From assembly GCA_017640785.1 (NCBI GenBank), contig JAEPPZ010000001.1, positions 540,182 to 604,181 of the forward strand: a stretch of DNA of 64,000 bases, read 5' to 3'. Source of the stretch: Balneola sp. (lineage in GTDB: Bacteria; Bacteroidota; Rhodothermia; Balneolales; Balneolaceae). The notes beneath the pieces were generated by a model. That model searched no databases and had not been told where the DNA came from. It saw only the letters and a list, made by a program, of their open reading frames with translations. How positions within the stretch are numbered: position 1 is the stretch's first letter; each line of letters begins with the position of its first letter. Made by a program: the position numbers and the translations under genes. This document shows, in pieces, positions 5,972 through 48,652 of the stretch.

Positions 5972-6544
5972 GTGAGTGCTATTTCTGAGATCCGAATAAA
6001 GAACATGGTGTGCGACCGCTGTATAAAAGTGGTTCGGCAAAAACTGGAAGAACAAAACTTGCCTGTTCAGCATATTGAACTGGGTAAAGTTCTGTTTGAT
6101 CGTCCGGTAGAAATCGATAATACAACGCTTGCAAAAGTATTGGAAGAAGAAGGTTTTGAGTTGATCGATGATGCCACTTCTCAACTTATCTCCAGAATTA
6201 AAATTTCTGTCATCAATCATATACATCATCACACAACCGGAGAATCATTCCATAACCTTACCGATTATCTGGAAAAAGAGATCGGTAAAAGTTATTCCAG
6301 TTTAAGTTCACTTTTCTCAAAAAATGAAGGTAGAACCATTGAGAAATATTCCATTCAACAACGCATAGAACGGGTGAAGGAATTACTTATTTATGGAGAG
6401 AAAACAGTGAGCGAAATTGCTCATGAATTGGGATACAGCAGTACTCAATACTTGTCCAATCAGTTTAAAAGTGAAACCGGTCTCACCCCTACCGAATTCA
6501 GAAAGCTCATTTCCTCAAATAGAAAGCCTTTGGACGAGGTTTGA
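5972..6544 (+). CDS. HMA-AraC fusion transcriptional regulator (copy 1)
   Basis: The 190-residue product has a ferredoxin-like metal-binding domain at the N-terminus with IKNMVCDRC (a CxxC site near residues 12-15) and an AraC-type DNA-binding domain at about 95-180, containing IAHELGYSSTQYLSNQF and TGLTPTEFR. A short helical linker with a His cluster (HIHHH) joins them. I infer a one-component metal sensor in which Cu(I) or another thiophilic ion at CxxC controls the helix-turn-helix domain. It lies directly upstream of copA on the same strand, and a paralogue sits beside the ATPase at 46.7 kb. A GTG at 5972 is taken as start; a TTG at 5936 is also possible. Later starts would remove the metal-binding domain. 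Confidence 0.85.
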   Translation: MSAISEIRIKNMVCDRCIKVVRQKLEEQNLPVQHIELGKVLFDRPVEIDNTTLAKVLEEEGFELIDDATSQLISRIKISVINHIHHHTTGESFHNLTDYLEKEIGKSYSSLSSLFSKNEGRTIEKYSIQQRIERVKELLIYGEKTVSEIAHELGYSSTQYLSNQFKSETGLTPTEFRKLISSNRKPLDEV

Positions 6545-6796: not shown

Positions 6797-6830
6797 ATCA
6801 GTGATCAAATCAACGAAATCAGTGATCAAA
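6797..6830 (+). promoter_or_regulatory. 21-bp-phased direct repeat, candidate HMA-AraC operator
   Basis: ATCAGTGATCAAA occurs at 6797-6809 and again at 6818-6830, start to start 21 bases, which is two helical turns. AraC-family regulators use two helix-turn-helix units and commonly bind direct half-sites at about this spacing. The repeat lies between the HMA-AraC gene and copA, 82 bases before the copA start. The assignment is inference from position and spacing. Confidence 0.5.
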
Positions 6831-6912
6831 AATCCTACACATCAATTCATAAATTCTGTAAGTAGATTCTGATTGAATTGTCTCATATTAGCAACGAACA
6901 AATCACCAGATC

Positions 6913-9417
6913 ATGAAACACACTTATCAAATTAACGGAATGAGTTGCAATGGTTGTAAAAGCCATGTAACCGAAGCACTTTCTGAAATTGAGAATATTC
7001 AAGACGTCTCAGTATCACTTGAAGAAGGAACTGCAGAAATTCAGATGTCTGAACATGTAGAATTGGAAACACTTCAGGAAGCATTAAACGATCTTTCAGG
7101 AAATTATTCGGTCCAACTACCCGGCGATCATTCTCATCATGAGCATCCTAAGAAAGAAAAGAAAAAGAAGCAGAACGGAAACGGTGTGTTTTACTGCCCC
7201 ATGCATTGCGAAGGTGACAAAACCTACGATGAACCCGGAGATTGTCCTGTTTGTGGTATGGATCTGGTTGAAGAGCAAAATATGAGTTCGGGCTCTTCTT
7301 CTGATATTTATACTTGCCCTATGCATCCTGAAGTTGAACAAAAAGGGCCCGGTTCTTGTCCAAAATGTGGCATGGATCTGGTTCCAAAAGAAGCCGATGA
7401 ATCAGCGGAACAAAAAAAGTACAAAGAATTACTTAAGAAATTCTGGGTCGCAGTAGCTTTTACCCTTCCTATTTTTATCATTGCGATGTCAGAAATGATC
7501 TCTGAAAATCCATTGTATGAAATGATGGATGTACAGATCTGGAACTGGATTCAATTCGGGCTTTCTTTACCTGTAGTTTTCTATGCCACATGGATGTTCT
7601 TTGAGCGGGCTTGGCGCTCCATCAAAACATGGAATTTAAATATGTTTACACTGATCGGAATCGGTGCAGGAATCGCATGGCTGTTCAGTGTGTTTGCTTT
7701 GATATTTCCAGATTTCTTTCCGGAGCAGTTTAAGACCGATGCAGGAACTGTTCATCTGTATTTCGAATCCGCTACTGTAATCTTAACGCTGGTTTTACTT
7801 GGACAAGTATTAGAAGCTCGGGCTCATTCTCAAACTAATAATGCCGTAAAAGAGTTGATGAAACTCGCTCCAAACACGGCTATCAGGGTCAAAGATGGGA
7901 AAGAAGAAGAGATTCATATTGATGAAATTGAAGTTGGTGATCATCTGAAAGTAAAACCGGGAGAAAAAATTCCGGTGGATGGGAGCATCATTGAAGGACA
8001 AACTTCTATCGATGAATCTATGATCACCGGCGAGCCTGTTCCTGTAGAAAAATCGACAGACGATTCAGTGAGTTCAGGTACCATTAACGGAAACAGCTCT
8101 TTCATCATGAAAGCAGAGAAAGTAGGTGACGAAACACTCCTTTCTCAGATCGTGGATATGGTAAATAAAGCCAGCCGAAGTAAAGCGCCGATCCAAAATC
8201 TTGCGGATAAGATCTCAGGATACTTTGTACCTGCTGTCGTTTTAATAGCCATAATCACGTATGGAGTTTGGGCATTATTCGGTCCTGAACCGGCTCATGT
8301 GTACGCCCTGATCAATGCCATTGCTGTGCTGATCATTGCTTGTCCTTGCGCCCTTGGATTGGCTACACCGATGTCTGTAATGGTTGGTGTTGGAAAAGGC
8401 GCTCAAAACGGAGTGCTCATCAAAAATGCAGAGGCGCTTGAGCGAATGAACGAAATGGACGTGCTTATTATCGACAAAACCGGAACCATCACTGAAGGTA
8501 AACCATCCGTGGAGAAAATGGTTTCTGTGGATGATGATTATTCCGAGGAGCAGATCATCCAATTTGTAAGCTCATTAAACAACGAAAGTGAACATCCGCT
8601 AGCTGAAGCCACCGTTAAATACGGAAAGTCTAAAGAGATCGAGTTTCTAAAAGTATCTGATTTCGAATCCATAACCGGACAAGGAGTTCAGGGAACCATT
8701 GATGGTAAAACCATCAAACTCGGTAACAGAAAAATGTTCAGTGATTCAGATACATCAGAACAAGATAAGATTGAGAAATCCCTCAGCGAGATCAGCGATC
8801 CCAAAACAATTTCCTGGTTAGCTGTAGATGAGTCAGTTGTTGGGTATGTAGTCATCGCTGATGCAATCAAAGAAAGCAGCAAAAAAGCCATTCAAGCTCT
8901 TCAGGAAAAAGGAATAGAAGTAATTATGCTTACGGGTGACAATCCGCAAACAGCAAAAGCCGTAGCTGAGGAAATGAACTTATCTTCATACAAAGCGGAA
9001 TGCCTGCCTCAGGATAAACTGGAAGAAATCGAACGACTTCAGGACGAAGGAAAGAAAGTAGCCATGGCGGGTGACGGAACCAATGATGCTCCGGCTTTAG
9101 CTCAATCTGATATAGGAATTGCCATGGGAACCGGAACCGATGTGGCGATGGAAAGTGCCATGATCACTTTGGTGAAGGGAGATCTGAATGGAATTGTTAA
9201 AGCAAAAAATCTGAGTACGGAAGTGGTCAAAAACATCAAACAAAACCTGTTCTTTGCCATGATCTATAATTCAGTAGGCGTGCCGATCGCTGCCGGAGTT
9301 TTATTTCCGGTTTTCGGTATTTTACTTTCACCAATGATCGCAGCACTGGCAATGAGTTTCAGTTCTGTTTCAGTGATTGGAAATGCACTGAGATTGAGAG
9401 GTGTAAAAATCACTTGA
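6913..9417 (+). CDS. copA: Copper-translocating P1B-1 ATPase with HMA and two metal-binding zinc-ribbon-like domains
   Basis: The 834-residue product exports Cu(I) (or Ag(I)) from the cytoplasm using ATP. Domains in order are an HMA domain with GMSCNGC (C12, C15), a His/Lys-rich linker (about 73-90), two short heavy-metal-binding domains with the pattern CPMH...CPxCGMDL (about 93-160), and the ATPase core. The core has the ion-site motif CPCAL (C477, C479), the phosphorylation motif DKTGT (D521), TGEPVP, MLTGDN and GDGTNDAP. The double CPxCGMDL module is typical of Bacteroidota copper pumps. The gene follows an HMA-AraC regulator and its stop codon overlaps a MerR-type -35 box, so its transcription ends inside the next promoter. 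Confidence 0.93.
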
Positions 9418-9639: not shown

Positions 9640-9670
9640 GGCGGGATTAATTTCCCGTCTTTTGTTTTAT
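9640..9670 (+). terminator. Intrinsic terminator after the metallothionein-like gene
   Basis: GGCGGGA (9640-9646) and TCCCGTC (9653-9659) form a 7-bp stem (one G-U pair) around TTAATT, followed by TTTTGTTTT. It should end most transcription of the small gene before merR. Confidence 0.75.
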
Positions 9671-9676
9671 TACACT

Positions 9677-10117
9677 ATGGATACTAAAGAAAAGATCACT
9701 TACAAAGTCGGAGAAGTAGCTCGCAAAGCCGGGGTGAATAAAGAAACACTTCGTTACTACGAAAAACGAAAACTCATCACTAAACCGGATCGTCGCAGAT
9801 CAGGGTACCGCATATTTACTCAACACCATATTGATCAGGTAAAATTTATAAAAAGAGCACAGGAACTTGGGTTTACTCTCAGTGAGATCAAAGAATTGTT
9901 GGAGCTCAGAATGGATGAGAATACTACCTGCTCGGAAGTTAAAACCGAAGCTGAAGAAAAGTATAAAGATGTTGTTGAGAAAATCGAAGATTTGCAAAGA
10001 ATTAAAACTACTCTCGTTGAATTGATTGATTCATGTTCCGGTAGCGGGCCTAAAGGAGAATGTCCAATTCTTGAAGCATTAGAAGGTGAGAACAAAATGG
10101 GAGAAAACTTACGATAA
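9677..10117 (+). CDS. merR: Mercury-responsive MerR transcriptional regulator
   Basis: The 146-residue product begins with a MerR winged-helix domain (VGEVARKAGVNKETLRYYEK) followed by a long dimerisation helix. Cysteines 85, 120 and 129 are spaced 35 and 9 residues apart, the same spacing as the Hg(II) ligands C82, C117 and C126 of Tn501 MerR. The last lies in an ECPIL segment like SCPLI of classical MerR. This is strong evidence for Hg(II) sensing rather than copper sensing. The ATG at 9677 is chosen over a TTG at 9662. The nearest matching operator is at 9414-9445, in front of the metallothionein-like gene; no MerR-type promoter was seen before the ArsR/MerTP genes. Confidence 0.9.
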   Translation: MDTKEKITYKVGEVARKAGVNKETLRYYEKRKLITKPDRRRSGYRIFTQHHIDQVKFIKRAQELGFTLSEIKELLELRMDENTTCSEVKTEAEEKYKDVVEKIEDLQRIKTTLVELIDSCSGSGPKGECPILEALEGENKMGENLR

Positions 10118-10137
10118 CAAGATCAAGTTGTAATCAG

Positions 10138-10159
10138 TATTTAAGCATTTGCTTAAATA
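10138..10159 (+). promoter_or_regulatory. ArsR/SmtB-type operator
   Basis: TATTTAAGCA (10138-10147) and TGCTTAAATA (10150-10159) form a perfect 10-bp inverted repeat with a 2-base centre, the AT-rich shape used by ArsR/SmtB repressors. A second perfect palindrome, TAATAAATTTATTA, follows at 10158-10171. Both lie 28-61 bases before the ArsR gene, which fits autorepression of the mercury module. Confidence 0.75.
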
Positions 10160-10198
10160 ATAAATTTATTATACTATTGAATAAACTAATCCCATATT

Positions 10199-10579
10199 AT
10201 GAATAAACAAGATTGTATAAGAGAGGTAGCTGATCTCAATCAAATAAACCGATGTATAGATTCCTTAGAACAGGTTGATACATCTATCTATAAATTAACT
10301 GATATTTTAAAACTAGCAGCGAATGACGTTAGGCTTAAAATTCTTTTTCTGTTAAATGCTGAGGAAAAATTATGTCCTTGTGATCTTGGGGATATCCTGA
10401 ATATGAGTATACCTGCTATATCTCAACATCTTAGAAAATTGAAAGATGGTGGTTTAGTCGATACAACCCGAGATGGGCAGGTTATTTTTTATTCTCTCAA
10501 TCCTGTCTTTAAGAAAATTCTGTCTCCAATTTTTGGACACATAAATAACAACCAACTATTAAAGGTTTTAGCAGCATGA
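10199..10579 (+). CDS. ArsR/SmtB-family metal-sensing repressor, CadC-like
   Basis: The 126-residue winged-helix protein has the recognition region DILNMSIPAISQHLRKLK. Metal-binding residues are visible: an LCPC motif (C59, C61) at the alpha-3 position, equivalent to the CVC of CadC and ArsR, plus N-terminal C6 and C19, which recall the N-terminal Cys pair of CadC. It probably binds DNA without metal and releases it when a soft metal binds. Its gene overlaps merTP by four bases (ATGA), so translation is coupled. A fitting operator lies just upstream. Given its neighbours I infer Hg(II) as inducer; Cd(II) or Pb(II) is possible. Confidence 0.85.
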   Translation: MNKQDCIREVADLNQINRCIDSLEQVDTSIYKLTDILKLAANDVRLKILFLLNAEEKLCPCDLGDILNMSIPAISQHLRKLKDGGLVDTTRDGQVIFYSLNPVFKKILSPIFGHINNNQLLKVLAA

Positions 10580-11190
10580 GTAAACAAAAAAACAATCAAA
10601 CAGAGACCAAGTGGATCGGAGCAGGAATCTTTACCGCATTTTTAGCTTCTTTATGCTGCATCACTCCTGTTGTAGCTATAGTAGCCGGTGTAAGCGGAGC
10701 AGCAGCTACTTTTTCTTGGATTGAACCATTCAGACCTTATATAATTGGACTTACCGTATTATTGCTTGGTTATGCATGGTATCGGTTATTAAAACCCAAT
10801 TGGGATCCGGATTGTGCTTGCGAAGAAAATCCATCTTTTCTGAATTCTAAAAGCTTTTTGGGAATAGTAACTGTAGTTGCAGCACTGTTAATAAGCTTCC
10901 CTTACTATTCGACTATTTTTACTTCGAAACCGGATCAGAAAGTCGTATACGTACAGCAAGATCAGGTTGAAACTGTTTCATTCAATATTGACGGAATGAC
11001 CTGCGCAGGATGTGAAGCAGCAGTCTTAAGTGCCGCTCATGGGGTAGACGGTGTACTCGAAGCTTCTGCTTCTTATGAAAATCAAAATGCTGTTGTCAAA
11101 TTTGATAAGGAGAAAACGACAGTCCCAACTATTATTGAGGCTATAAACAAAACCGGTTATATAGCTTCAGAAAGCGAGAAACTTAATTAA
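10576..11190 (+). CDS. merT: Mercuric ion transporter MerTP (MerT fused to a MerP-like HMA domain)
   Basis: The 204-residue product has three transmembrane helices and a C-terminal HMA domain. The MerT vicinal pair C27-C28 sits in helix 1 (LASLCCITP). A second pair, C80 and C82, lies in the loop after helix 2 (DPDCACE). The HMA domain carries GMTCAGC (C143, C146). These are the three cysteine sites by which MerT and MerP pass Hg(II) from the periplasm to the cytoplasm. In this fusion the MerP part follows the third helix. The start codon overlaps the ArsR stop. Confidence 0.92.
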   Translation: MSKQKNNQTETKWIGAGIFTAFLASLCCITPVVAIVAGVSGAAATFSWIEPFRPYIIGLTVLLLGYAWYRLLKPNWDPDCACEENPSFLNSKSFLGIVTVVAALLISFPYYSTIFTSKPDQKVVYVQQDQVETVSFNIDGMTCAGCEAAVLSAAHGVDGVLEASASYENQNAVVKFDKEKTTVPTIIEAINKTGYIASESEKLN

Positions 11191-11196
11191 ATTTAT

Positions 11197-11406
11197 ATGA
11201 AAACCACCATTGCTGAATCAACCATAACATGCCCTAAATGTGGAAATCAATCCACAGAAACCATGCCAACAGATTCCTGCCAATTTTTCTGGGAATGCCC
11301 TGAATGTAAAGAGGTTCTGAAACCTAAACAGGGAGACTGCTGTGTGTTTTGCTCCTATGGAGATGTCGCTTGTCCACCCATCCAACAAGATAAAAGCTGT
11401 TGTTAG
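11197..11406 (+). CDS. Small Cys-rich protein of the mercury module (GDCCVFCSYG type)
   Basis: The 69-residue product has eleven cysteines: a CPKC pair, a single Cys, a CPEC pair, then CCVFC, a late Cys in VACPPIQ, and a terminal CC. The first half resembles a zinc ribbon (CPKCGN...CPECKE). It begins 6 bases after merTP and lies before the flavoprotein, so it is clearly part of the operon. I recognise the GDCCVFCSYG motif as recurring in small unnamed proteins near merT, but know no function. Inference: a soluble thiol carrier handing Hg(II) from MerTP to the next enzyme, or a scavenger. Confidence 0.8.
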   Translation: MKTTIAESTITCPKCGNQSTETMPTDSCQFFWECPECKEVLKPKQGDCCVFCSYGDVACPPIQQDKSCC

Positions 11407-11457
11407 TTATGAACTATAAAGACATTAAAAAAATAAAAATCTTAATATAGGAGACAC

Positions 11458-12798
11458 ATGAAATTTGATCTAATTGTTATAGGTTCCGGGATGTCAGGAA
11501 TGACAATCGCGAATAAATGTGCTGCAAAAGGTTTAAAAACTGCCGTCACAGATTCAAGGCCATATGGTGGGACCTGTGCGTTAAGAGGTTGTGACCCGAA
11601 AAAGATTTTGATTGGGGCTGCAGAAATCATCGATCGAGCCAACAAAATGTCAAACATTGGTATTGCCGGGAAAGTAGAAATTAACTGGAATGAATTAATG
11701 GCATATAAAAACGATTTCGTTTCCAATATGCCGTCAAGAGTTGAGAAAGGATATCAAAAAAATGATGTCACGATGTTTCATGGTGCTGCAAGCTTTAAAT
11801 CTCCCAACTCCATCAAAATTGGTGATGATATTTTAGAAAGCGATAAAATTGTTATTAGTACCGGAGCAAAAGCACGGACATTAAACATACCGGGTGGCGA
11901 TCTTTGTATAGATAGTTCTGATTTTCTTAATTTAGATAGCCTACCAAATAATGTTACTTTTATTGGTGGCGGTTACATTTCATTCGAATTTGCACATCTT
12001 GTGGCAAGAGCCGGAAGCAAAGCAACCATCCTGCACAAAGGTGAAAGACCTTTAGAAAATTTTGATGAGGACATGGTAGATCATCTGGTAAAAGCCACTG
12101 AAGGACTCAACATTGACCTTAAGCTAAAATCTGAAGTAGTAGCCATTGAAAAAACCAACAACCATTTATTAGTTACAGCCAAATCTGAGAATTCAACCCA
12201 AACAATTCAAACTGATATGGTAGTAAATGCTGCCGGAAGAGTTCCTGAATTAGATGGTCTTAATCTTGAAAAAGCGAATGTTGAGTACGGTAAAAAAGGA
12301 ATTATAGTAAATGAGTTTCTACAGAGTAAAAGTAACTCATCTGTGTATGCTGCAGGAGATTGTGCAGCTACTCAAGGTTTGAATCTTACGCCCGTTGCGG
12401 TAATGGAAGGACATGCTGTTGCATCAAATATTATACGAGGTAATTCAAAGAAACCTGACTATACTGAAATGCCCTCCTCTTTATTTACATTACCTCCTCT
12501 ATCGGCAGTTGGTTTTACAGAAAAGGAACTAAAGGATAAAGAGATATCTTATCATGTAAATTCCGGTTCTGCAAAAGACTGGTATAACGCTAAGAGAATC
12601 AATGAATCAACTTATGCATATAAAGTGTTACTAAATGACGAAGGCTACATTTTAGGAGCTCATTTAATTGGCCCCCATTCAGAGGAAACCATTAACCTTT
12701 TTGCACTGGCGATAAAAAATAAGATAAAAGCCAATTCGCTTAAAAGTTTTGTTTATTCGTACCCTTCTATGGCATCAGATGTTGGCTCAATGGTTTGA
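11458..12798 (+). CDS. FAD/NAD(P)-dependent disulfide oxidoreductase, MerA-like without the MerA C-terminus
   Basis: The 446-residue product has an N-terminal FAD-binding GSGMSG motif (9-14), the redox disulfide C40-x4-C45 in GGTCALRGCDPKK, a second nucleotide-binding GGGYISFE, and AAGDCA for FAD. It belongs to the glutathione/mercuric reductase superfamily. Two features argue against a standard MerA: no N-terminal HMA domain, and no Cys pair at the C-terminus (it ends in VGSMV). The position of the glutathione reductase catalytic His also appears to be Tyr (SYPSMASD). GGAG lies 8 bases before the ATG. Its place in the operon suggests a role in Hg(II) reduction or thiol recycling. Confidence 0.8.
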   Translation: MKFDLIVIGSGMSGMTIANKCAAKGLKTAVTDSRPYGGTCALRGCDPKKILIGAAEIIDRANKMSNIGIAGKVEINWNELMAYKNDFVSNMPSRVEKGYQKNDVTMFHGAASFKSPNSIKIGDDILESDKIVISTGAKARTLNIPGGDLCIDSSDFLNLDSLPNNVTFIGGGYISFEFAHLVARAGSKATILHKGERPLENFDEDMVDHLVKATEGLNIDLKLKSEVVAIEKTNNHLLVTAKSENSTQTIQTDMVVNAAGRVPELDGLNLEKANVEYGKKGIIVNEFLQSKSNSSVYAAGDCAATQGLNLTPVAVMEGHAVASNIIRGNSKKPDYTEMPSSLFTLPPLSAVGFTEKELKDKEISYHVNSGSAKDWYNAKRINESTYAYKVLLNDEGYILGAHLIGPHSEETINLFALAIKNKIKANSLKSFVYSYPSMASDVGSMV

Positions 12799-15894: not shown

Positions 15895-17103
15895 TTAAAA
15901 TGTACTGTAAATAAAAAGAGATATTCCTACAGCATTAATAAGAATAAAAAGAGTAACTGCGACCTTCTTAAATTTTCCGCCGCCTTCCATATCCATATTC
16001 ATGCTTGCCCCATGTTCTTTTTTGTGTTGTTTGTATAAATAGATCAACCATCCTGTAACCAGAACAAAAACAATATTCATCCAAAAGGTATAGTCAATCT
16101 TAAACTGAGTAACTTCCTGAACCACTTTTGCTGACTCAGGGATGATCCCAAAAAATGAAAAAGCACTGTTCAGAATTAATGCAGTAGCCACAATACTCAC
16201 AAACATTATACCTGCGATATACAGAGCAACCTTCCATCCATAATATTTAGCGTTGATATGAACCAACGGTGGGACCATCAGATCTGAGTAAATGAAGCCC
16301 ATAATTCCGGCGAACATAACTCCGTTCTCATTCAATACTGTTGCCAAAGGAATATTTCCCATCGAGCCAATAAAAGTTGCCCCGGCAACGAAAGGAGCAA
16401 TAACTGCATTTTCAAGGGTTACTAACCAACTCGGTATATTTGTAGCATCTGCTAAGAAAAGAGCGGACCAGAAATCTGCAGGAACCATTACCGCAACAAA
16501 TCCTGCAATGGTAAAACCGATAAGAATGTCTTCCCAAGCCATCTTCCAGTCGTTTACAAACTTCTGGCCAACCAGATGCCATCCTTTCCTACTGGTGATA
16601 CGCTCTTTCCAGTTAAAGTCATCATCCATAGATGAGTCTTCTTCTTCAAGTTTATTGCGTGTCTCTTTAATCCATTTCTTTGGATAGGTGAGTTTAATTA
16701 ACACACTGCTAATGGCAATTAATATGAGACCACCAATAATTTCTGCCGCAAGAAATTGCCATCCCAAAAAGATCATAATTAGAATTCCCAACTCAATAAC
16801 CAAGTTGGTAGAAGCGAACATAAATGCAACCGCAGCTACAAAATGTGCTCCCTTTTTTACTAAAGACCGTGCCGCCGCTAATGCAGCAAAGGAACAAGAT
16901 GATGAGGCTGAACCGAATAAAGTAGAAAGTGAAATACTTTTGAAGTCAGCATCACCCATATATTTTGTCATTTTTCCTTTAGACACAAATGCCTGAATCA
17001 TTCCGGAAACAAAGTATCCCAAAATGAATGCCCAACCTGACTTCCAAAAGAAACCCAGCGCCGTTTTTGTTGACTCTCCATAAAGTTGTATGAATTCATT
17101 CAT
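15895..17103 (-). CDS. DUF318 family permease (predicted metal exporter)
   Basis: The 402-residue product has two repeats of hydrophobic helices separated by an acidic loop (EEEDSSMDDDFNW, about 150-165), as in the DUF318/YraQ permeases. The family motif GSASSSCSFAALAAA (about 64-78) carries a conserved Cys. Related members include ArsP (organoarsenical export) and the SO_0444 type linked to Cu/Zn efflux. A His/Met-bearing tail loop (HKKEHGASMNMDMEGGG) lies before the last helix. Its position next to a multicopper oxidase supports copper-related transport, but the substrate is inference. Confidence 0.8.
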   Translation of the reverse strand: MNEFIQLYGESTKTALGFFWKSGWAFILGYFVSGMIQAFVSKGKMTKYMGDADFKSISLSTLFGSASSSCSFAALAAARSLVKKGAHFVAAVAFMFASTNLVIELGILIMIFLGWQFLAAEIIGGLILIAISSVLIKLTYPKKWIKETRNKLEEEDSSMDDDFNWKERITSRKGWHLVGQKFVNDWKMAWEDILIGFTIAGFVAVMVPADFWSALFLADATNIPSWLVTLENAVIAPFVAGATFIGSMGNIPLATVLNENGVMFAGIMGFIYSDLMVPPLVHINAKYYGWKVALYIAGIMFVSIVATALILNSAFSFFGIIPESAKVVQEVTQFKIDYTFWMNIVFVLVTGWLIYLYKQHKKEHGASMNMDMEGGGKFKKVAVTLFILINAVGISLFIYSTF

Positions 17104-17125
17104 TTTTTAATACTTCTTAGTTAGC

Positions 17126-18592
17126 TTATGTTATTTCATAATTAGCCATCATACCGCTATCCTCATGTTCGAGGTTGTGACAATGAAATACATACATTCC
17201 TTTAGGTGCATCAAACTTCATTATCACTCGAACATGCTCTCCGGGCATTACTAAAACGGTGTCTTTCCAACCTGTTTCGTGAGGTAAAATCCCTCTACTT
17301 CCACTTCTATCTAGTACTTTAAATTGTATGGCATGTATATGCATTGGGTGAGGAGTTGGTGTATCATTAATAAACTCCCAGATTTCTATTTGACCTTGCT
17401 TAACCTGTAAATCTACACGGTTCATTTCAAATTGCTTTCCATTGATCGTGTGCCCTTTCATCATCTGCATATTAAGATCAATTTGTCGTCTCAAGGCCGC
17501 ATCTTTTTCTTCAGGAAAGGTCGAAACTGAAAGCTCTTTGGGTAATTCTGGAATGCTTCCAACACGTTCATCGATAATTTTAAACTCCATCAGTTTAAAG
17601 CTCGCTCCCTGCTCCGGGCTGCTCCCTCCCATCATATTGCCCATACCATTCATCATGCCCCCTGAAGATGGAATGTCGAAAGGAAGGCTTACCAAAGAAG
17701 CTCTTTCTTGACTGAATTTAGAAAAATCAATCAATATATCTGCTCTTTCCCCGGGTGCAAGTAAAAGTTGATCAACTTCTAATGCTTTTGGAAGTAACCC
17801 GCCATCGCCACCTATTAAAGTAAACGGGAGTTGGTTTTGAAAAGCGATATTATAGATTCTGGCATTTGAGCCATTTAGTAACCGAACGCGATACATTCCT
17901 TTTTTTACGTCTTTAATAGCCGCCGGTGTACCATTGATTAAAACTTTATCACCCAAAAATCCCGTCATCATTTGTTCGTGCATCGAAGGATCATATACTA
18001 TCTCACCAGATGAAGTTGAACGTCTATCCTGAATAAGCAAAGGAATTTCAAATTCTCCATTTGGCAGATCTAATGCTTTTTCCTCTTCGTCTTCTACAAT
18101 AAAGAATCCAGCCAAGCCCTTGTAAACTTGATCACCTGTTATTCGATCAGGATGTGGGTGATACCAATAGGTACCCGCCCGTTGGTTGATTAAAAAGTCA
18201 TACTCATAAGCTCCACCAGAAATAGCATCTTTTGGATGACCATCCATATCCGGAGGGACGATCAATCCATGCCAATGAATGATACTATCTTGGCCAATTT
18301 GGTTTTCAAAAATTGCTTTAATTCTGTCACCATGTCGACATTTTATCGTTGGTGATGGATAACTTTGATTAAACTGAAAGCCTGATATTTGATAATTTTC
18401 TCCAATAATATAATTCTCCGAAGAAGCAGCAAGAGTAAAATTTTGATTATTTATAAGCGGGGGTTGCCCCAAGTTGTTAATAAATTCATCATAACCAATC
18501 ATCTGATTGGTTCGACAACTACTTATGAAAGGGCTTAAAGCTAGTGCACCTGATCCTATTGCAATGTTTCTTATAAAGCTTCTTCTATTCAT
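17126..18592 (-). CDS. Multicopper oxidase (CueO/SpoII type) 1
   Basis: The 488-residue product starts with a twin-arginine signal (NRRSFIRN) that ends near SSC, so it may be a lipoprotein. All copper sites are present: HWHG and WYHPH in the first cupredoxin domain, and HPMHIH with HCHNLEHEDSGMM in the third, where the Met is the type 1 axial ligand. A Met-rich stretch (MMNGMGNMMGG, near 315-325) is like the Cu(I)-binding insert of CueO. It should oxidise Cu(I) to Cu(II) in the periplasm. It is shorter than, and distinct from, the 604-residue CopA-type oxidase in the same operon. Confidence 0.92.
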   Translation of the reverse strand: MNRRSFIRNIAIGSGALALSPFISSCRTNQMIGYDEFINNLGQPPLINNQNFTLAASSENYIIGENYQISGFQFNQSYPSPTIKCRHGDRIKAIFENQIGQDSIIHWHGLIVPPDMDGHPKDAISGGAYEYDFLINQRAGTYWYHPHPDRITGDQVYKGLAGFFIVEDEEEKALDLPNGEFEIPLLIQDRRSTSSGEIVYDPSMHEQMMTGFLGDKVLINGTPAAIKDVKKGMYRVRLLNGSNARIYNIAFQNQLPFTLIGGDGGLLPKALEVDQLLLAPGERADILIDFSKFSQERASLVSLPFDIPSSGGMMNGMGNMMGGSSPEQGASFKLMEFKIIDERVGSIPELPKELSVSTFPEEKDAALRRQIDLNMQMMKGHTINGKQFEMNRVDLQVKQGQIEIWEFINDTPTPHPMHIHAIQFKVLDRSGSRGILPHETGWKDTVLVMPGEHVRVIMKFDAPKGMYVFHCHNLEHEDSGMMANYEIT

Positions 18593-18601
18593 AATTGTTC
18601 T

Positions 18602-18988
18602 TTACAGAGTTTCGATGATTTTACTGAGACTTGATTGGACTTGTTGAGCAATATTATTCAGCTCTTTATTCTCTACTGCCTGCATGGAAGCCAGTGGATT
18701 GACTGCGGAAACTTCAACCGTTCCATCTTCGTGCTCTTCCACGATGACATTGCAAGGAAGCATAGTTCCAATTTTATCCTCTTTTAAAAGGGCTTGATGT
18801 GCAAAGTTTGGATTACAAGATCCCAAAATTTTATACTTCTTGAAATCCACATCCAGCTTATTTTTAAGCGTTTCTTTCACGTCAATTTCTGTGAGTACCC
18901 CAAAACCTTCGTCCTTGAGCCTTTCAGTTACATGTTGAATAGCATCTTCAAAATTTTGATTTACTGTTTTAGATATATAATAGTCCAT
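18602..18988 (-). CDS. DUF302 domain protein
   Basis: The 128-residue product is a typical single-domain DUF302 protein, with the segments VLTEIDVKETLKNKL, ILGSCNPNFAHQALL and LPCNVIVEE that mark the family. Two conserved cysteines (SCNP and PCNV) could bind metal. No signal peptide is seen, so it is probably cytoplasmic. DUF302 genes recur in copper-resistance clusters, but no biochemical role is established. It lies 9 bases upstream of the multicopper oxidase gene in the same operon. Confidence 0.8.
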   Translation of the reverse strand: MDYYISKTVNQNFEDAIQHVTERLKDEGFGVLTEIDVKETLKNKLDVDFKKYKILGSCNPNFAHQALLKEDKIGTMLPCNVIVEEHEDGTVEVSAVNPLASMQAVENKELNNIAQQVQSSLSKIIETL

Positions 18989-18996
18989 GATTGTCC

Positions 18997-19215
18997 TTAA
19001 TTTTCGAGTTCTGCTTTTTTCTGTTCGAATTCGGTTTTACTGATTTCTCCCCCGGCATACCATTTCTTAAGTATTTCAAGAGGGCTTTCTTCGCTATTCA
19101 ATTTTTGTTGTTGATTAGCTCTGAAAAATTGAAAAAATCCGTAACCAATTACAAAGATCAAAAGCCACCAAAGAATCATCATCCATCCTCCTCCAAATCC
19201 ATTTAAGCACTGCAT
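18997..19215 (-). CDS. Small SHOCT-domain membrane protein
   Basis: The 72-residue product has one transmembrane helix (WMMILWWLLIFVIGYGFF) and a C-terminal SHOCT domain (PLEILKKWYAGGEISKTEFEQKKAEL). The SHOCT motif is a short C-terminal helix pair found on many unrelated small proteins, thought to assist oligomerisation. Such proteins are frequent in copper clusters. AGGACAT precedes the ATG. Function unknown. Confidence 0.8.
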   Translation of the reverse strand: MQCLNGFGGGWMMILWWLLIFVIGYGFFQFFRANQQQKLNSEESPLEILKKWYAGGEISKTEFEQKKAELEN

Positions 19216-19273
19216 AGTTATGTCCTGTTAGAAACAGTGCCTGATGCATTATTCACCAGGCACTATTCTATGA

Positions 19274-19720: not shown

Positions 19721-19770
19721 AGTGTTTCTCCTTTTATTTGTCTTCTTATGATTAAATTTTTTCATGGTTA

Positions 19771-20049: not shown

Positions 20050-20067
20050 GTTTTCTCCTGTTTTTTG

Positions 20068-20259: not shown

Positions 20260-20267
20260 CTTTAGTT

Positions 20268-20609: not shown

Positions 20610-20660
20610 AAAACCTCTTTTTAATCATTATTGTTATTATAAAATCCTATGTAACCGTAT

Positions 20661-25345: not shown

Positions 25346-25352
25346 AATTCAA

Positions 25353-41845: not shown

Positions 41846-44347
41846 ATGAAAAAGATACAAATAAAAATACCATTGCTCTTGCCAGAGGTACCGGATGAGA
41901 AGGATCAGTGTGTGCAAAAACTCATTCAACATCTTAATGACAAGAAAGGTCTTGAAAAAGTGCATGTAGCAGATAAAACGGAGGATGGCGTACCTCAGCT
42001 ATGCTTTCATTACAACCCGGAGCTAATCTCGATAAATCGAATACAGACCTTGGCGGAGCAAAGCGGGGCGGAAATAACGCAGAAATTTGGACATAAACTT
42101 ATAGAAGTGGATGGAATCCGGCATACCCGCCATGCTCGAAATATTGAACATAATCTTCAGGGAATAGAGGGCATTTTAGAAATCTCCATATCAGCTTCCG
42201 GTATGGTTCGGGTTGAATTTGATACGACCAAATTAGATGAAGCAGAAATCTTGAAAACCTTGAAAAATAAGGGCCTTGATGTACTAGAAACTCATGTAAG
42301 TGCCGAACTATTTCTTGAGAAGATAGAAGAAACTAAAAAGGGCGAAGATCAAAAAGAAGATAAAAAAGACCACGACCATGAGGAAGGTGAAAATCATGAA
42401 CACTCTCACGGTGGTATTTTCGGTAAAAATACGGAGCTCATCTTTTCCATTATCTGTGGAGCATTGCTCGGTATTGGCTTTGGACTGTCTTATGTAGATG
42501 CTCTGCCTTCCTGGGTGAGCCTCGCATTATACATCGGTGCCTATTTCTTTGGCGGCTATTTTACGGCTATAGAAGCCATTCAAACAGTGGCAAAAGGCGG
42601 TTTTGAAATTGATTTCCTTATGCTGGTTGCAGCCATTGGCGCTGCTATTTTAGGCGAATGGGCAGAAGGTGCTTTGCTGTTATTTTTGTTCAGTATGGGA
42701 CACGCTCTGGAACATTATGCTATGAACAAAGCCAGAAAGTCTATAAAGGCTTTGGCAGAACTCGCTCCTAAAACCGCGTTGCTTAAGAGAAATGGTAAGA
42801 CTGAAGAAGTCGGTATTGAGGAATTGAGCATCGGTGACATTATTGTGGTGAAGCCCAATAGCAAAATTTCTGCTGATGGTGTAGTGGTGAGTGGTCAAAG
42901 TAGCGTTAATCAAGCTCCTATTACCGGAGAAAGTGTACCGGTAGATAAAGAACCGGTGGATAATCCCGAGAAAGACTGGTCGCAGGAAGACGACATCAAA
43001 GATGAGAACCGTGCTTTTTCTGGCACTATCAATGGGAACAATACGCTGGAAATCAAAGTTACTAAAGTTGCGAAGGATTCAACCCTCTCCCGTCTAGTTA
43101 AATTGGTGAATGAAGCCCAAACTCAGAAATCACCTACACAGCGACTCACCGATAAATTTGAGAAATATTTTGTACCAGCTGTCCTAGTCTTGGTAGTTGT
43201 ACTCAATTTCGCATTTTTGGTACTGGACGAAACCTTTAGTGAAAGCTTCTACCGGGCAATGGCCGTATTGGTGGCAGCCAGCCCTTGTGCTTTGGCGATA
43301 GCCACCCCAAGTGCAGTATTAAGCGGAGTGGCAAGGGCAGCTAAAAGCGGGGTGCTTATCAAAGGTGGTCGTCCGTTGGAAGATCTGGGTGTACTCACCG
43401 CCCTGGCTTTTGACAAAACCGGAACGCTAACAGAAGGTAAGCCCAAACTAACTAAAGTATTTCCATTGGGTGATATAAACGAGGAAAAACTGTTGAAAAT
43501 CGCAGTAGCCGTAGAGAACCTTAGTGACCACCCCTTAGCAAAGGCCGTGGTACGGGATGGGAAAGAGCGATTGGATGATGTTGACGTACCAGAGGCGAAA
43601 GATCTGGAAGCTGTGCTTGGCAAGGGGATTAAAGCCTCCTTGGGTGATGATAAAGTGTACATCGGCAATCTAGACTTGTTTGAATCCCTGGATGATAATA
43701 AGCCGGAGAAGGAAACAGAAGAAAAAGTTAAATCACTGGAATCAGATGGCAATACTACCATGCTAATCCGTCAAAATGACAAATACATTGGCATTATTGC
43801 CCTGATGGATACCCCGAGGGAAGAAGCTAAAAAAACATTGGAACGATTAAAAGAAATCGGTATCAAGCGTATGATCATGCTAACGGGTGATAACCAGAAA
43901 GTAGCGGATACAGTAGCCAAAGAGATTGGCCTTACGGATGCCTGGGGTAGTTTGTTGCCGGAAGAAAAGGTTGAAGCAATAAAAAAGCTTAGAGAAAAAG
44001 AATCCAAAGTAGCGATGGTGGGCGATGGCGTAAATGATGCCCCGGCAATGGCAAACAGCACGGTAGGGATTGCCATGGGAGCAGCTGGCAGTGACGTAGC
44101 CCTGGAAACAGCTGATATTGCCTTAATGGCCGACAAGCTGGAGACCTTGCCTTTTGCTATCGGTTTGAGTAGAAAAGCCAAAGGCATTATCAAGCAAAAC
44201 CTCTGGGTTAGTTTGGGTATTGTGGCTTTATTAATACCAGCCACAGTTTTCAGCTTTGCCAACATAGGTATTGCCGTACTGATTCATGAAGGCTCTACGC
44301 TGGTAGTAGTATTTAATGCGTTACGATTGTTGGCTTATAAAAAGTAA
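41846..44347 (+). CDS. SPC-type (P1B-4-like) metal P-type ATPase with degenerate HMA domains
   Basis: The 833-residue product has two HMA-like domains (about 1-85 and 88-150) that lack CxxC; the second reads VDGIRHTRHAR where the site would be. A His/Glu/Asp-rich linker follows (DHDHEEGENHEHSHGG, about 178-195). The ATPase core has SPC (S479-P-C481) at the ion site, DKTGT (D523), TGESVP, LTGDN and GDGVNDAP. SPC marks the CoaT/ZosA-like group that exports Co, Zn or similar divalent ions. It heads a run of three transporter genes, the next starting 2 bases after its stop. Confidence 0.88.
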   Translation: MKKIQIKIPLLLPEVPDEKDQCVQKLIQHLNDKKGLEKVHVADKTEDGVPQLCFHYNPELISINRIQTLAEQSGAEITQKFGHKLIEVDGIRHTRHARNIEHNLQGIEGILEISISASGMVRVEFDTTKLDEAEILKTLKNKGLDVLETHVSAELFLEKIEETKKGEDQKEDKKDHDHEEGENHEHSHGGIFGKNTELIFSIICGALLGIGFGLSYVDALPSWVSLALYIGAYFFGGYFTAIEAIQTVAKGGFEIDFLMLVAAIGAAILGEWAEGALLLFLFSMGHALEHYAMNKARKSIKALAELAPKTALLKRNGKTEEVGIEELSIGDIIVVKPNSKISADGVVVSGQSSVNQAPITGESVPVDKEPVDNPEKDWSQEDDIKDENRAFSGTINGNNTLEIKVTKVAKDSTLSRLVKLVNEAQTQKSPTQRLTDKFEKYFVPAVLVLVVVLNFAFLVLDETFSESFYRAMAVLVAASPCALAIATPSAVLSGVARAAKSGVLIKGGRPLEDLGVLTALAFDKTGTLTEGKPKLTKVFPLGDINEEKLLKIAVAVENLSDHPLAKAVVRDGKERLDDVDVPEAKDLEAVLGKGIKASLGDDKVYIGNLDLFESLDDNKPEKETEEKVKSLESDGNTTMLIRQNDKYIGIIALMDTPREEAKKTLERLKEIGIKRMIMLTGDNQKVADTVAKEIGLTDAWGSLLPEEKVEAIKKLREKESKVAMVGDGVNDAPAMANSTVGIAMGAAGSDVALETADIALMADKLETLPFAIGLSRKAKGIIKQNLWVSLGIVALLIPATVFSFANIGIAVLIHEGSTLVVVFNALRLLAYKK

Positions 44348-44349
44348 AA

Positions 44350-45144
44350 TTGAAAAAATCCACATTCCACATCAGCAAAATGGATTGCCCTTCAGAGGAG
44401 GAAATGATCCGCATGAAGCTGGAACCTTATAATGAGGTAAAACAACTTTCTTTTGATATCCCTAATCGCAAACTGGAAGTATATCATACAGATGGAGTAG
44501 AAATCATCCATCAGGCCATTAGCGAACTCAAACTCAACGACCGGCTGGAAAACACGGAAGATGAAGCAGAGTTGCCGTTGGCTGCTAATGAGTCAAAACA
44601 GCGAAAAATATTGTGGTGGGTGCTTAGCATCAATTTCGGCTTCTTTGTAGTAGAGATGACCACCGGATGGATTTCAAACTCTATGGGTTTGATAGCAGAC
44701 TCACTCGATATGCTTGCTGATTCCATCGTATATGCACTAAGTCTGTTTGCGATTGGCGGTACTATTTACAGAAAGAAAAAAGTAGCTAAATTTAGTGGCT
44801 ATTTTCAGATGGGATTGGCGCTTTTAGGCTTCTCAGAGGTACTGCGGAGATTTTTCAGCGAAAGCGAAACACCTCTTTTTGAGTGGATGATCGTCGTAGC
44901 ATTACTGGCCCTTATCGGTAACCTGGTTTCGCTCTGGCTGATCAATAAAGCTAAAAGCGATGAAGCTCACATGCAGGCAAGTGCTATATTTACATCCAAT
45001 GACATTATTGTGAATGGTGGGGTGATATTAGCCGGAGTACTTGTTTTTTGGTTTGATAGTAAACTACCAGATCTGATAATCGGGGCGATTGTATTCAGTT
45101 TTGTGATTCGTGGAGCCATAAAAATCCTACAATTAAGTAGGTAA
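44350..45144 (+). CDS. HMA-like domain fused to a CDF-family cation transporter
   Basis: The 264-residue product has an HMA-like N-terminal domain (about 1-70) with MDCPSEEE in place of GMTCxxC, and a transmembrane part (about 85-260) with the CDF helix-2 motif LIADSLDMLADSIVYAL and a later SNDIIVNGG. The usual cytoplasmic CDF C-terminal domain is absent. It starts with TTG two bases after the ATPase stop, so translation is likely coupled. CDF proteins exchange Zn, Cd or Co for protons. The Cys-plus-carboxylate site may suit the same metal as the degenerate HMA domains of the ATPase. Confidence 0.82.
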   Translation: MKKSTFHISKMDCPSEEEMIRMKLEPYNEVKQLSFDIPNRKLEVYHTDGVEIIHQAISELKLNDRLENTEDEAELPLAANESKQRKILWWVLSINFGFFVVEMTTGWISNSMGLIADSLDMLADSIVYALSLFAIGGTIYRKKKVAKFSGYFQMGLALLGFSEVLRRFFSESETPLFEWMIVVALLALIGNLVSLWLINKAKSDEAHMQASAIFTSNDIIVNGGVILAGVLVFWFDSKLPDLIIGAIVFSFVIRGAIKILQLSR

Positions 45145-45174
45145 CATAATTAGTGACACTCAAATTCATATCCC

Positions 45175-46068
45175 ATGACACATGATCATCACCATAATCA
45201 AGAAGGGAATATTAAAATCGCCTTCTTCCTTAACCTCGGTTTTACCATACTCGAATTTTTTGGTGGATTGTATGTAAACAGTGTTGCCATTATTTCCGAT
45301 GCTTTACACGATCTTGGTGATAGTATCTCACTTGGATTGTCATGGTATTTGGATCACAAATCTAAGCAAGGAGCAAATCGATCGTTCACTTTCGGTTATA
45401 CACGGTTTTCCCTTCTCGGAGCGTTAATCAACAGCCTTGTTTTAATAGCGGGCTCCATCTTTGTTATTAATGAAGCGGTCGCTCGTATTATCACTCCGGA
45501 ACATACAGACGCTCAAGGAATGCTTATTTTTGCCATTATTGGGGTAAGTGTAAATGGCTACGCTGCGTGGAAGGTTAGCGACGGAAAAACTCTCAACGAA
45601 AAAGTTATTTCCTGGCACCTGTTAGAAGATGTTTTAGGCTGGGCTGCCGTACTGATTGTCTCGATTGTTTTGATATTTCAAGATATTCATTACTTAGACC
45701 CTGCACTTTCAATTCTAATTACTGCTTATGTTCTCTGGAATGTTATCAAAAGACTAAAAGAAACGTTATATGTGTTTCTTCAAGGTAGTCCTGATGATGT
45801 TAGTGTGGAAGAACTGGAAACTAAATTTCTGAAAAAGGACTTTATAAACCAAACCAAGCATGTACATTTATGGTCACTTGATGGTGAAAGCCATGTCTTT
45901 ACTGCTCATTTGATTTTAGAAGGAGTCTCAGAATATTCTGAAATCATTAGAGTAAAAAAAGAGATTCGAGAAATTTTAAAACCTTACAATTTTAGTCACT
46001 CTACCATTGAGGTAGAACTAGATACAAAGACATCCTCATTAATAGAAATAGAAAATCACTCCAAATGA
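45175..46068 (+). CDS. CDF-family cation efflux protein (ZitB/CzcD type)
   Basis: The 297-residue product starts with a His cluster (MTHDHHHNQ) and has six transmembrane helices with the paired metal-site motifs ALHDLGDS in helix 2 and WHLLEDVLGW in helix 5. A complete cytoplasmic domain follows (about 205-290, KHVHLWSLDGESHVFTAHLI), as in ZitB and CzcD. It exports Zn(II), Cd(II) or Co(II) in exchange for protons. Its stop overlaps the start of the HMA-AraC gene (ATGA), tying transporter and regulator together. Confidence 0.93.
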   Translation: MTHDHHHNQEGNIKIAFFLNLGFTILEFFGGLYVNSVAIISDALHDLGDSISLGLSWYLDHKSKQGANRSFTFGYTRFSLLGALINSLVLIAGSIFVINEAVARIITPEHTDAQGMLIFAIIGVSVNGYAAWKVSDGKTLNEKVISWHLLEDVLGWAAVLIVSIVLIFQDIHYLDPALSILITAYVLWNVIKRLKETLYVFLQGSPDDVSVEELETKFLKKDFINQTKHVHLWSLDGESHVFTAHLILEGVSEYSEIIRVKKEIREILKPYNFSHSTIEVELDTKTSSLIEIENHSK

Positions 46069-46628
46069 AACAGCATTTTCACATAAAAAACATGGTCTGC
46101 AGCCATTGTGCAGAGGTTTTGGAAGAGAAACTTCAATCTTCAAATTTTCAGGTTAAAAAGATCGAGCTTGGAGAATTAACACTGGATGAACCCATTACCG
46201 ATGCAGAATATCAGCGTTTAATAAATGTAGTTCAAAAGAACGGATTCGAAATTATTAACGATCAGGGCAGTAAAACCGTTGAACAGATCAAACAGCTTAT
46301 AATTCAGTTGGTTCGTACAAATAAGGAACTGAAAGGAAAGCTTTCAGAATACTTGGCTAAAAATTTGAATAAAGACTATCAACATCTGAGCCGGTTATTC
46401 TCAAATGTGGAAGGGAAATCTATAGAGCGCTATTTCATCCTGCAGAAAATAGAACGAGCTAAAGAACTGATCGTTTACGGAGAATTAAATCTGACAGAAA
46501 TAGCCTACGAATTAGGATACAGCAGCCAACAACACTTTTCCAGACAATTTAAAACTGAAACCGGGCTCTCACCTTCTCACTTTAAAGAAATAAAAGAAAA
46601 TAAGCGCATTTCGATTGACCAGATTTGA
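46065..46628 (+). CDS. HMA-AraC fusion transcriptional regulator (copy 2)
   Basis: The 187-residue product repeats the architecture of 5972-6544: IKNMVCSHC near residues 8-13 (CxxC), then an AraC-type DNA-binding domain (about 95-180) with IAYELGYSSQQHFSRQF and TGLSPSHFKE. The two copies agree closely in the AraC half and in the acidic stretch after the HMA core. Here the loop is SHC, adding a His near the site, so it may sense Zn or Cd instead of Cu. It overlaps the CDF gene before it and precedes a CPC-type ATPase gene, the same regulator-ATPase order as at copA. Confidence 0.88.
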   Translation: MKQHFHIKNMVCSHCAEVLEEKLQSSNFQVKKIELGELTLDEPITDAEYQRLINVVQKNGFEIINDQGSKTVEQIKQLIIQLVRTNKELKGKLSEYLAKNLNKDYQHLSRLFSNVEGKSIERYFILQKIERAKELIVYGELNLTEIAYELGYSSQQHFSRQFKTETGLSPSHFKEIKENKRISIDQI

Positions 46629-46699
46629 CGTAATAATGCACAAGAATTACAAAAACCTGCAATCAGATTAAGAATCAAATGGGTACCATTTAAAAAAAT

Positions 46700-48652
46700 A
46701 TGTACCCAATGTTATCATTCATAAAAAAATACAAAGAGGCCTTTATAAGCACATTATTGCTTACCGGAGCCTTGATTTTTGAACACTCTGTTCCGTTTGA
46801 AGGCAGCCAGTATCTGTATCTAACTTTTTATGGATTGTCCTATTTAGCGGTTGGTGGGTCTGTTTGGATCCAAGCTTTTAATTCTCTTAAAAAAGGAACG
46901 CTGTTTAGTGAGTTCTTTTTAATGGGAATTGCCACCATAGGCGCTTTCGCTTTGGGTGAATACGCCGAAGGCGTTGCAGTGATGCTGTTTTATACCATTG
47001 GGGAATATGCTCAGCACGGAGCTGTTCACAGAGCCAGAAATTCCATTAAAAAACTAATCGATCAACAACCGGATATTGCTTTTGTAGAACGTAATGGAGA
47101 AACCATTGAAGTTCACCCTTCAAAATTAGATCCAGGGGAAGTAGTATTGGTTCGACCAGGCGCAAAAGTACCACTTGATGGTGAGCTAATAACGGAACGT
47201 GCATCATTTAATACAGCAGCACTTACCGGCGAATCCAAACCTATGACAATTAATGCCGGTGAAGAAGTTTGGGCAGGTTCTATAAATCAGGACACTGTAG
47301 TTCGCATCAAAGTTACCAGTACTTTTAAAGATACAAAGCTTTCAGGTATCCTTAATATGGTTCAGGAAGCATCAAAACGCAAAGCACCAACACAACGGTT
47401 CATTACAAAATTTGCTAAAGTATACACCCCGATCGTGGTCTGGCTGGCTGTAGCGATAACCTTTCTTCCATATTTATTTGTTGAGTCATATGTTTTTCAG
47501 GACTGGTTTTACCGAGCACTTATCTTTCTGGTTGTTTCATGTCCTTGTGGATTGGTTATTTCTGTTCCTCTAGGATATTTTGGGGGAATTGGAGCAGCTT
47601 CAGGAAACGGAATTTTATTTAAAGGATCAGACTACCTTGATCAACTTCGAAAGATGAACATCCTCTTTATGGATAAAACCGGAACTTTGACCAAAGGTTC
47701 ATTCGAGGTACAATCTGTTCAAACTTACAATGGTTTCAGTGAAAGTGAGTTGATCAAATATGCCGCTTCTTTGGAACAACATTCTACCCATCCGATCGGA
47801 AAAGCAATTCTCAGTTATAAAAATGGACAAGAGCTACTCCCGGTAGCCGAACAACAGGAGGTTTCAGGGAAAGGTTTGGAGGGCATTATTAATGGCAAGA
47901 ACGTACTTGTAGGAAATATGGATCTTTTGAAAGATCATCAGGTTAAATTTTCCGAAGGTCTGTTTTCAGAACCATACACTTACATTCATATTGCTGTCGA
48001 TGGAGAACATGCCGGTACTTTAAGTATAGCTGATGAAATCAAAGAGGACAGTAAACGAGCCATTCAAGAATTAAAAGAAAGAGGCCTTCAAAAGTTAGTA
48101 ATGCTTTCAGGAGATAATCAGGAAGTAGTTACTTATGTCGCCAACCAACTTGGTATAGATGAAGCACATGGAAATCTCCTCCCGGATGAAAAATTTAAAC
48201 TTGTTGAAGAAGCCATCGGTAAAGGAAATGTAGTAGGTTTTATGGGAGATGGTGTTAATGACGCTCCTGTTATTACATTATCGGATGTTGGCATTGCCAT
48301 GGGAGGTATAGGCTCTGATGCAACCGTAGAAACTGCTGATATTGTAATCCAGAATGATCAAACATCCAAACTTCCATTGGCAATCGACATTTCAAAGTTT
48401 ACACATCGTATTGTCTGGCAGAATATCTTCTTTGCTTTAGGAATAAAGGTCTTAGTAATGTCTCTGGCCAGCTTTGGTATTGCCACTATGTGGGAAGCTA
48501 TTTTTGCGGATGTGGGTGTAGCCCTTATAGCAATTGGAAATGCAATTCGAATTCAGAACAGGTTTTCGGAAACAAATTCTCTTTTTTCTTTCTTTGCATC
48601 AAGTTCTCAGGATAGTCAACACGATCATGAAGAAGCTCACTGTTGTTGCTAA
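46700..48652 (+). CDS. CPC-type heavy-metal P-type ATPase without N-terminal HMA domain
   Basis: The 650-residue product begins directly with membrane helices. It has CPC (C281, C283) in SCPCGLVISVPLG, DKTGTLTKG, TGESKP, LSGDNQ and GDGVNDAP. The sequence after CPC resembles ZntA/CadA (P1B-2), so Zn(II), Cd(II) or Pb(II) export is likely. The only obvious soluble metal site is a C-terminal tail DHEEAHCCC. The region before the gene holds a near-palindrome GGGTACCAT ... ATGTACCC (46681-46707) that overlaps the start codon. It is the last gene of the metal island. Confidence 0.9.
   Translation: MYPMLSFIKKYKEAFISTLLLTGALIFEHSVPFEGSQYLYLTFYGLSYLAVGGSVWIQAFNSLKKGTLFSEFFLMGIATIGAFALGEYAEGVAVMLFYTIGEYAQHGAVHRARNSIKKLIDQQPDIAFVERNGETIEVHPSKLDPGEVVLVRPGAKVPLDGELITERASFNTAALTGESKPMTINAGEEVWAGSINQDTVVRIKVTSTFKDTKLSGILNMVQEASKRKAPTQRFITKFAKVYTPIVVWLAVAITFLPYLFVESYVFQDWFYRALIFLVVSCPCGLVISVPLGYFGGIGAASGNGILFKGSDYLDQLRKMNILFMDKTGTLTKGSFEVQSVQTYNGFSESELIKYAASLEQHSTHPIGKAILSYKNGQELLPVAEQQEVSGKGLEGIINGKNVLVGNMDLLKDHQVKFSEGLFSEPYTYIHIAVDGEHAGTLSIADEIKEDSKRAIQELKERGLQKLVMLSGDNQEVVTYVANQLGIDEAHGNLLPDEKFKLVEEAIGKGNVVGFMGDGVNDAPVITLSDVGIAMGGIGSDATVETADIVIQNDQTSKLPLAIDISKFTHRIVWQNIFFALGIKVLVMSLASFGIATMWEAIFADVGVALIAIGNAIRIQNRFSETNSLFSFFASSSQDSQHDHEEAHCCC

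Follow-up and report, generated by a model that had tools for sequence, protein, structure and literature searches.

A 64,000-nucleotide stretch of contig JAEPPZ010000001.1 from Balneola sp. (hereafter, the window) encodes a protein in which an HMA (metallochaperone) domain is fused to an AraC-type DNA-binding domain. This protein is designated as regulator A, and its gene adjoins copA, which encodes a P1B-type copper ATPase. A paralog, regulator B, is encoded elsewhere in the window beside a Zn/Cd-type ATPase. The two regulators belong to separate clades of one family, designated as CxRC (regulator A) and CxHC (regulator B). The HMA-AraC architecture of regulator A is confirmed, and the evidence supports the reading that it is a one-component regulator, responsive to metal, of the P-type ATPase encoded next to it. 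HMA-AraC proteins quite probably constitute a class of one-component metal sensor-activators of Bacteroidota, responding to Cu(I) in the case of regulator A and to Zn/Cd in the case of regulator B. We infer metal binding at the CxxC motif, DNA binding, activation and the identity of the metal from sequence. The coordinates of all features are collected in Table 1.

Domain Architecture of Regulator A

The open reading frame (ORF) of regulator A is uninterrupted from the GTG start at 5972 to the stop at 6544 and encodes 190 residues. The initial annotation had described it as a CxxC-containing HMA domain fused to an AraC domain, adjoining a copper ATPase gene, and both parts of this description were borne out. 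The Pfam model HTH_18 was matched with the E-value 3.7e-19 (69.3 bits against a cut-off of 33.6). The Pfam HMA model (PF00403) was not detected in the single sequence of regulator A; it was detected in 12 of 28 relatives in the same type of search. With a family profile, positions 2–60 matched the HMA domains of CopZ, ATP7B, and ATOX1 (E-values 5e-5 to 1e-4 to CopA/CopZ domains), and the C-terminal half matched solved structures of AraC domains.

The AlphaFold2 model of regulator A (pLDDT 88.4) shows the beta-alpha-beta-beta-alpha-beta order of HMA domains at residues 4–65, followed by the AraC domain. VIA-align gave Z-scores of 7–8 over 59–64 residues between the HMA part and GolB, Atx1, and CopZ, and of 11–14 over 103–118 residues between the AraC part and AraC-family domains. 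A Z-score of 7–8 over about 60 residues is modest taken alone and is consistent with the profile match. Both folds were also recovered with Foldseek against PDB. Regulator A thus combines the HMA fold and its MxCxxC motif with the C-terminal double helix-turn-helix (HTH) of the AraC/XylS family. Every one of the 148 family members examined keeps the MVCxxC motif, among them 68 that a motif-seeded search had not found.

The adjoining ATPase scored 600.9 bits with the copper model TIGR01511 (cut-off 397), and its CPC and MxxSS motifs, read from the ORF, place it in the P1B-1 type.

Distribution and Gene Neighborhood

Of 394 genomes sampled from the phylum, 179 had a family match at an E-value of 1e-15 or better, as did 93 of 170 genera. 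The 80 named loci taken from GTDB species genomes all fall within Bacteroidota sensu lato, with Ignavibacteria and Chlorobi included, and the near-full-length plasmid copies among the matches listed are likewise all from Bacteroidota.

The initial annotation had proposed to examine whether HMA-AraC/ATPase gene pairs are conserved across Bacteroidota, and they are. Of the 80 loci, 79, picked by the regulator alone, were examined for neighbors. In 47 of them, a P1B ATPase gene lies on the same strand no more than three genes downstream, mostly 57–97 bp away, and in 32 the ATPase is the very next gene. A metal-handling gene is present within five genes in 65 of the 79 loci. When the next gene is not an ATPase, it carries an HMA domain in 15 of 40 cases and encodes an ArsP permease in 4. 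With a handful of P1B ATPase genes in about 3,500 genes, chance proximity should be well below one per cent, an estimate reasoned from gene numbers.

Predicted Operators and Promoter Geometry

An unsupervised expectation-maximization (EM) motif search was performed on the 170 bp 3' of the regulator genes, with shuffled sequences as controls. For the CxRC clade, the log-likelihood was 870 versus 118–131 in shuffles, and an element like operator A was found in about 60% of the clade. A related element was recovered from the CxHC clade (458 versus 86–90). The top direct-repeat lag was 21 in both clades (0.24 versus 0.085, and 0.38 versus 0.118, respectively). An inverted-repeat operator (TACA...TGTA) was also considered and rejected, being weaker than the lag-21 direct repeat.

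When the window was scanned with the CxRC matrix, operator A, which lay outside the training region of the matrix, ranked first (6832) and operator B second. The CxHC matrix on the plus strand returned operator B first and operator A second. Pattern matching in the 3.39-Mb genome of the same organism found a single match to pattern A at one mismatch or fewer; it is exact and lies 5' of copA. The next best match has 2 mismatches, and weak matches are few (6 versus 2 for a backward control). Pattern B occurs exactly only 5' of the ATPase at 46700 and is unique within 2 mismatches.

The predicted site precedes 27 of the 32 ATPases that directly follow the regulator. Elsewhere in the loci it precedes 13 of 27 ATPases, but among other genes 11 of 807 (Fisher p 3e-15); a few of these 13 sites overlap the training region, while those of the loci L057, L080, L101, L112, and L115 are outside it. 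The site is missing from the regulators' own promoters (0 of 79), so there is no sign of autoregulation, and this possibility was dropped. Two HMA-AraC genes lie close together 5' of an ATPase in L064, L073, and L081, and L064 contains several operator-like sites, including 5' of a CPH ATPase.

The candidate DNA site of the initial annotation, 6797–6830, did not hold. It consists of two copies of ATCAGTGATCAAA and resembles a dispersed intergenic repeat. The repeat is missing in most relatives, and its unit is scattered in the genome (29 occurrences at one mismatch or fewer, versus 2 for a backward control). It was rejected as an operator, and the conserved site is the adjacent 6830–6862.

Copper ATPase genes can be governed by other regulators; in E. 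coli, the MerR-type protein CueR controls copA. A MerR-type gene (9662–10117) and an ArsR gene (10199–10579) lie just downstream of copA in the window, and either product could run copA while the HMA-AraC protein acts elsewhere. However, these two genes accompany MerTP, as expected for a mercury operon. The pairing of HMA-AraC with an ATPase, together with the predicted site, is seen repeatedly across the phylum, and in this genome the site is unique and located at copA. Control of copA by the MerR-type or ArsR protein is therefore extremely improbable.

The position of the predicted operator relative to the core promoter is also conserved. In 50 of 68 relatives, the TTTG core of the Bacteroidota -7 element begins 22–23 bp past the 33-bp site, and a TTG is present in the -33 region of only 5 of 51 such promoters. 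The copA element CATATTAG is an imperfect match to TAnnTTTG, yet it has the same offset. A sigma70 promoter scan gave nothing useful. A predicted operator in place of the -33 box, at a fixed distance from the -7 element, is arranged as for an AraC-type class II activator. The AraC/XylS family is likewise characterized by half-sites that form direct repeats with a spacing of about 21 bp close to the core promoter, as predicted from sequence here.

The same geometry could be read in the opposite sense. In a metal-released repressor, as CopY or CsoR, the apo-protein would cover the copA promoter at -33, and copper on the HMA domain would lift it. The operator abuts the core promoter, which makes such occlusion geometrically possible. 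However, 21-bp direct repeats just upstream of -7 together with the scarcity of a -33 TTG fit an activator-dependent promoter, and AraC-family proteins at such promoter positions are usually activators. Repression is thus unlikely, and activation is the preferred reading.

Table 1. Features of the two HMA-AraC loci in the window.
Feature	Position	Strand	Evidence
Regulator A, HMA-AraC fusion, CxRC clade	5972..6544	+	ORF/translation; profile matches to both domain types; AlphaFold2 model
HMA (metallochaperone) domain of regulator A, residues 4–66	5981..6169	+	AlphaFold2 secondary structure; fold match to GolB/Atx1/CopZ; profile match to CopZ/ATP7B/ATOX1
CxxC motif of regulator A (MVCDRC, Cys14 and Cys17), putative metal site	6011..6022	+	MVCxxC kept family-wide
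AraC-type DNA-binding domain of regulator A, residues 67–183	6170..6520	+	Pfam HTH_18; fold match to AraT, YesN, MarA, AraC
Operator A (predicted), direct repeat, 21-bp period, AAATCCTACA-N11-AAATTCTGTA	6830..6862	+	Conserved in Balneola relatives; EM motif; position weight matrix; genome-unique
-7-like element of copA, CATATTAG	6884..6891	+	Read from sequence; same offset from operator as the phylum's TAnnTTTG
P1B-1 Cu(I) ATPase CopA, presumed target of regulator A	6913..9417	+	N-terminal HMA; CPC and MxxSS motifs; TIGR01511
Regulator B, paralogous HMA-AraC fusion, 187 residues, MVCSHC loop, CxHC clade	46065..46628	+	43% identical to regulator A; monophyletic clade, support 1.0
Operator B (predicted), 21-bp-period direct repeat, TGCA half-sites at 46637 and 46658	46629..46664	+	EM motif in CxHC clade; lag-21 autocorrelation
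P1B-2-type Zn/Cd ATPase, presumed target of regulator B	46700..48652	+	TIGR01512, 506.3 bits versus cut-off 313.5
P1B-4-like ATPase (SPC, HEGST motifs) plus two CDF transporters, 5' of regulator B	41846..46068	+	ORFs; CDF TIGR01297 for 45175–46068

Regulator B and the Divergence of the Two Clades

A second HMA-AraC copy beside another ATPase had also been noted initially, and regulator B and the ATPase at 46700 correspond to it. No further full-length HMA-AraC copy was found in the genome search. This ATPase scores above the cut-off of TIGR01512 and under that of TIGR01511, and it has the CPC and C-terminal DxG motifs of the P1B-2 type. The proposed repetition of the regulator and P-type ATPase pair within one island is thus correct in that both pairs are present; regulator B, however, belongs to the Zn/Cd-linked clade and is not a second copper regulator.

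The pairing follows the clades. CxRC regulators are paired with Cu-type (CPC, MxxSS) ATPases in 44 cases and never with the Zn/Cd type, whereas CxHC regulators are paired with Zn/Cd-type (CPC, DxG) ATPases in 15 cases and never with the copper CPC/MxxSS type. Two further CxHC regulators lie some 2.5 kb ahead of an SPC-type ATPase. The NCBIfam typing of both ATPases in the window agrees with this pairing. The CxHC clade, which is monophyletic, differs in the recognition helix (residues 158–169) by T/V158Q, L161F, and N163R, and its predicted half-sites are of the TGCA type versus the TAYA type in the CxRC clade. The sensor loop, the DNA reader, the predicted operator and the pump therefore vary together between the clades.

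The CxxC motif might alternatively be a thiol-disulfide switch sensitive to redox state or electrophiles, the link to ATPases reflecting metal-induced oxidative stress. Redox activity is possible for CxxC pairs, and an HMA fold with CxxC alone is no proof of metal binding. However, the regulators are partnered with metal exporters in particular, and the loop type follows the metal class of the ATPase. MVCxxC is moreover the MxCxxC motif typical of copper chaperones, and resemblance to CopZ, Atx1, and ATP7B is seen in profile and fold. A redox switch is thus very unlikely, and metal sensing is favored.

Proposed Mechanism

Excess cytosolic Cu(I) would bind the CxxC motif in the HMA domain of regulator A. 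Two AraC domains, from a dimer or from two monomers, would bind the half-sites of operator A, which are 21 bp apart on one face of the DNA. Bound regulator A would then occupy the -33 position and recruit RNA polymerase to the -7 element of copA, and CopA, once switched on, would export copper. Regulator B would act likewise on the Zn/Cd-type ATPase via the TGCA-type repeat of operator B, and most likely senses Zn(II) or Cd(II). The initial proposal of a one-component metal regulator with a real functional link to the ATPase is supported by the phylum-wide gene order, the conserved predicted operator, and the matching divergence of loop, helix, operator and ATPase type.

Several points weigh against this mechanism. 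No recognized metal gene is present within five genes in 14 of the 79 loci, and about 40% of CxRC regulators have no site within 450 bp downstream. The link between the CxHC clade and Zn/Cd ATPases is a single evolutionary split in one family, and the clade counts therefore overstate independence. In addition, some Bacteroidota use CsoR instead: PF02583 was found in 62 of 198 sampled genomes, 43 of the 62 in one family. CsoR as a mutually exclusive alternative to HMA-AraC was considered and dropped; the association between the two is negative (8 genomes have both, p about 1e-11) but stems mostly from one family, without which p is 0.086. The genome containing the window has no match to PF02583.

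As a tentative extension, possible rather than probable, HMA-AraC proteins might be the principal sensors of cytosolic copper in Bacteroidota. They might receive copper from CopZ-like chaperones by the same HMA-to-HMA handover that supplies CopA, in which case sensor and pump would be competitors for a single copper pool. Zinc/cadmium sensing and a new operator might have arisen in the class from a few residue changes in the loop and the recognition helix.

Relation to Known Regulators

HMA-AraC proteins share with AraC/XylS proteins (AraC, MarA, SoxS, Rns) the C-terminal two-HTH domain and the direct-repeat half-sites 21 bp apart by the core promoter; the sensor is a metallochaperone domain, whereas AraC/XylS proteins have a cupin or another small-molecule domain. 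The Ada protein (N-Ada) is likewise a fusion of a cysteine-based metal site with an AraC-type domain, but its Zn-Cys4 site senses DNA methyl damage and not metal level. The N-terminal half has the HMA fold and MxCxxC of CopZ, Atx1, and ATOX1, to which HMA-AraC proteins add a fused DNA-binding domain. The expected role, cytosolic Cu(I) sensing and control of CopA, is that of CueR, CsoR, and CopY, whose DNA-binding folds and metal sites are unrelated. The archaeal CopR/CopT are likewise one-component fusions of a DNA-binding and a metal-trafficking domain encoded beside copA, but their helix-turn-helix is of another kind, they have TRASH instead of HMA, and they are archaeal (PMC7830388).

The initial annotation had placed HMA-AraC outside the classic metalloregulator types, and this was upheld. 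Neither the all-helical fold of CsoR (PF02583) nor the winged HTH of MerR/CueR was found in regulator A; the only significant matches in Pfam were to AraC-type HTH models, and those in Pfam and NCBIfam together were to no other HTH type. A review of copper sensors published in 2023 makes no reference to AraC (PMC10141476). HMA-AraC proteins are labeled "AraC family transcriptional regulator" in databases, and no prior description of the family was found in open-access full text, preprints and most subscription papers being outside the coverage. HMA-AraC thus appears to be new as an AraC-family regulator with a metallochaperone sensor domain, with an earlier description being possible.

Cytosolic copper sensing in Bacteroidota appears unsettled. 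CsoR has been called noticeably absent from Bacteroidales (PMC4938975). In Bizionia argentinensis, MerR and CopY candidates were judged to be without known copper-binding sites, and two ArsR-type candidates were left (PMC11213822). A widespread HMA-AraC class with a defined predicted operator makes the question directly testable. The two clades, which have different metal loops, recognition helices, predicted operators, and pumps, are a natural experiment on the evolution of metal and DNA specificity, and HMA-AraC is a possible part for copper or zinc biosensors.

Other Genes in the Window

The Rfam search found no RNA element in the 64-kb window. The mercury-type operon directly downstream of copA (9662–12798) comprises the MerR-like regulator, the ArsR regulator, a MerTP fusion, and an FAD disulfide reductase; the MerTP fusion scores over its NCBIfam cut-off, and the reductase under that of MerA. 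The order of P1B-4-like ATPase, CDF genes, and regulator B is repeated in the relatives L118 and L119. A large copper/metal island on the minus strand (15895–33000) contains an SO_0444/ArsP-related permease (far under the NCBIfam cut-off), multicopper-oxidase-like ORFs, a P1B-3 (CPH) ATPase, and a CusABC-like RND system. A single ORF of 1466 residues (34406–38806) apparently combines a CzcA-type RND pump with a TolC-like outer-membrane efflux domain, as assigned by eye, and long ORFs resembling it are present in the relatives L116 and L121.
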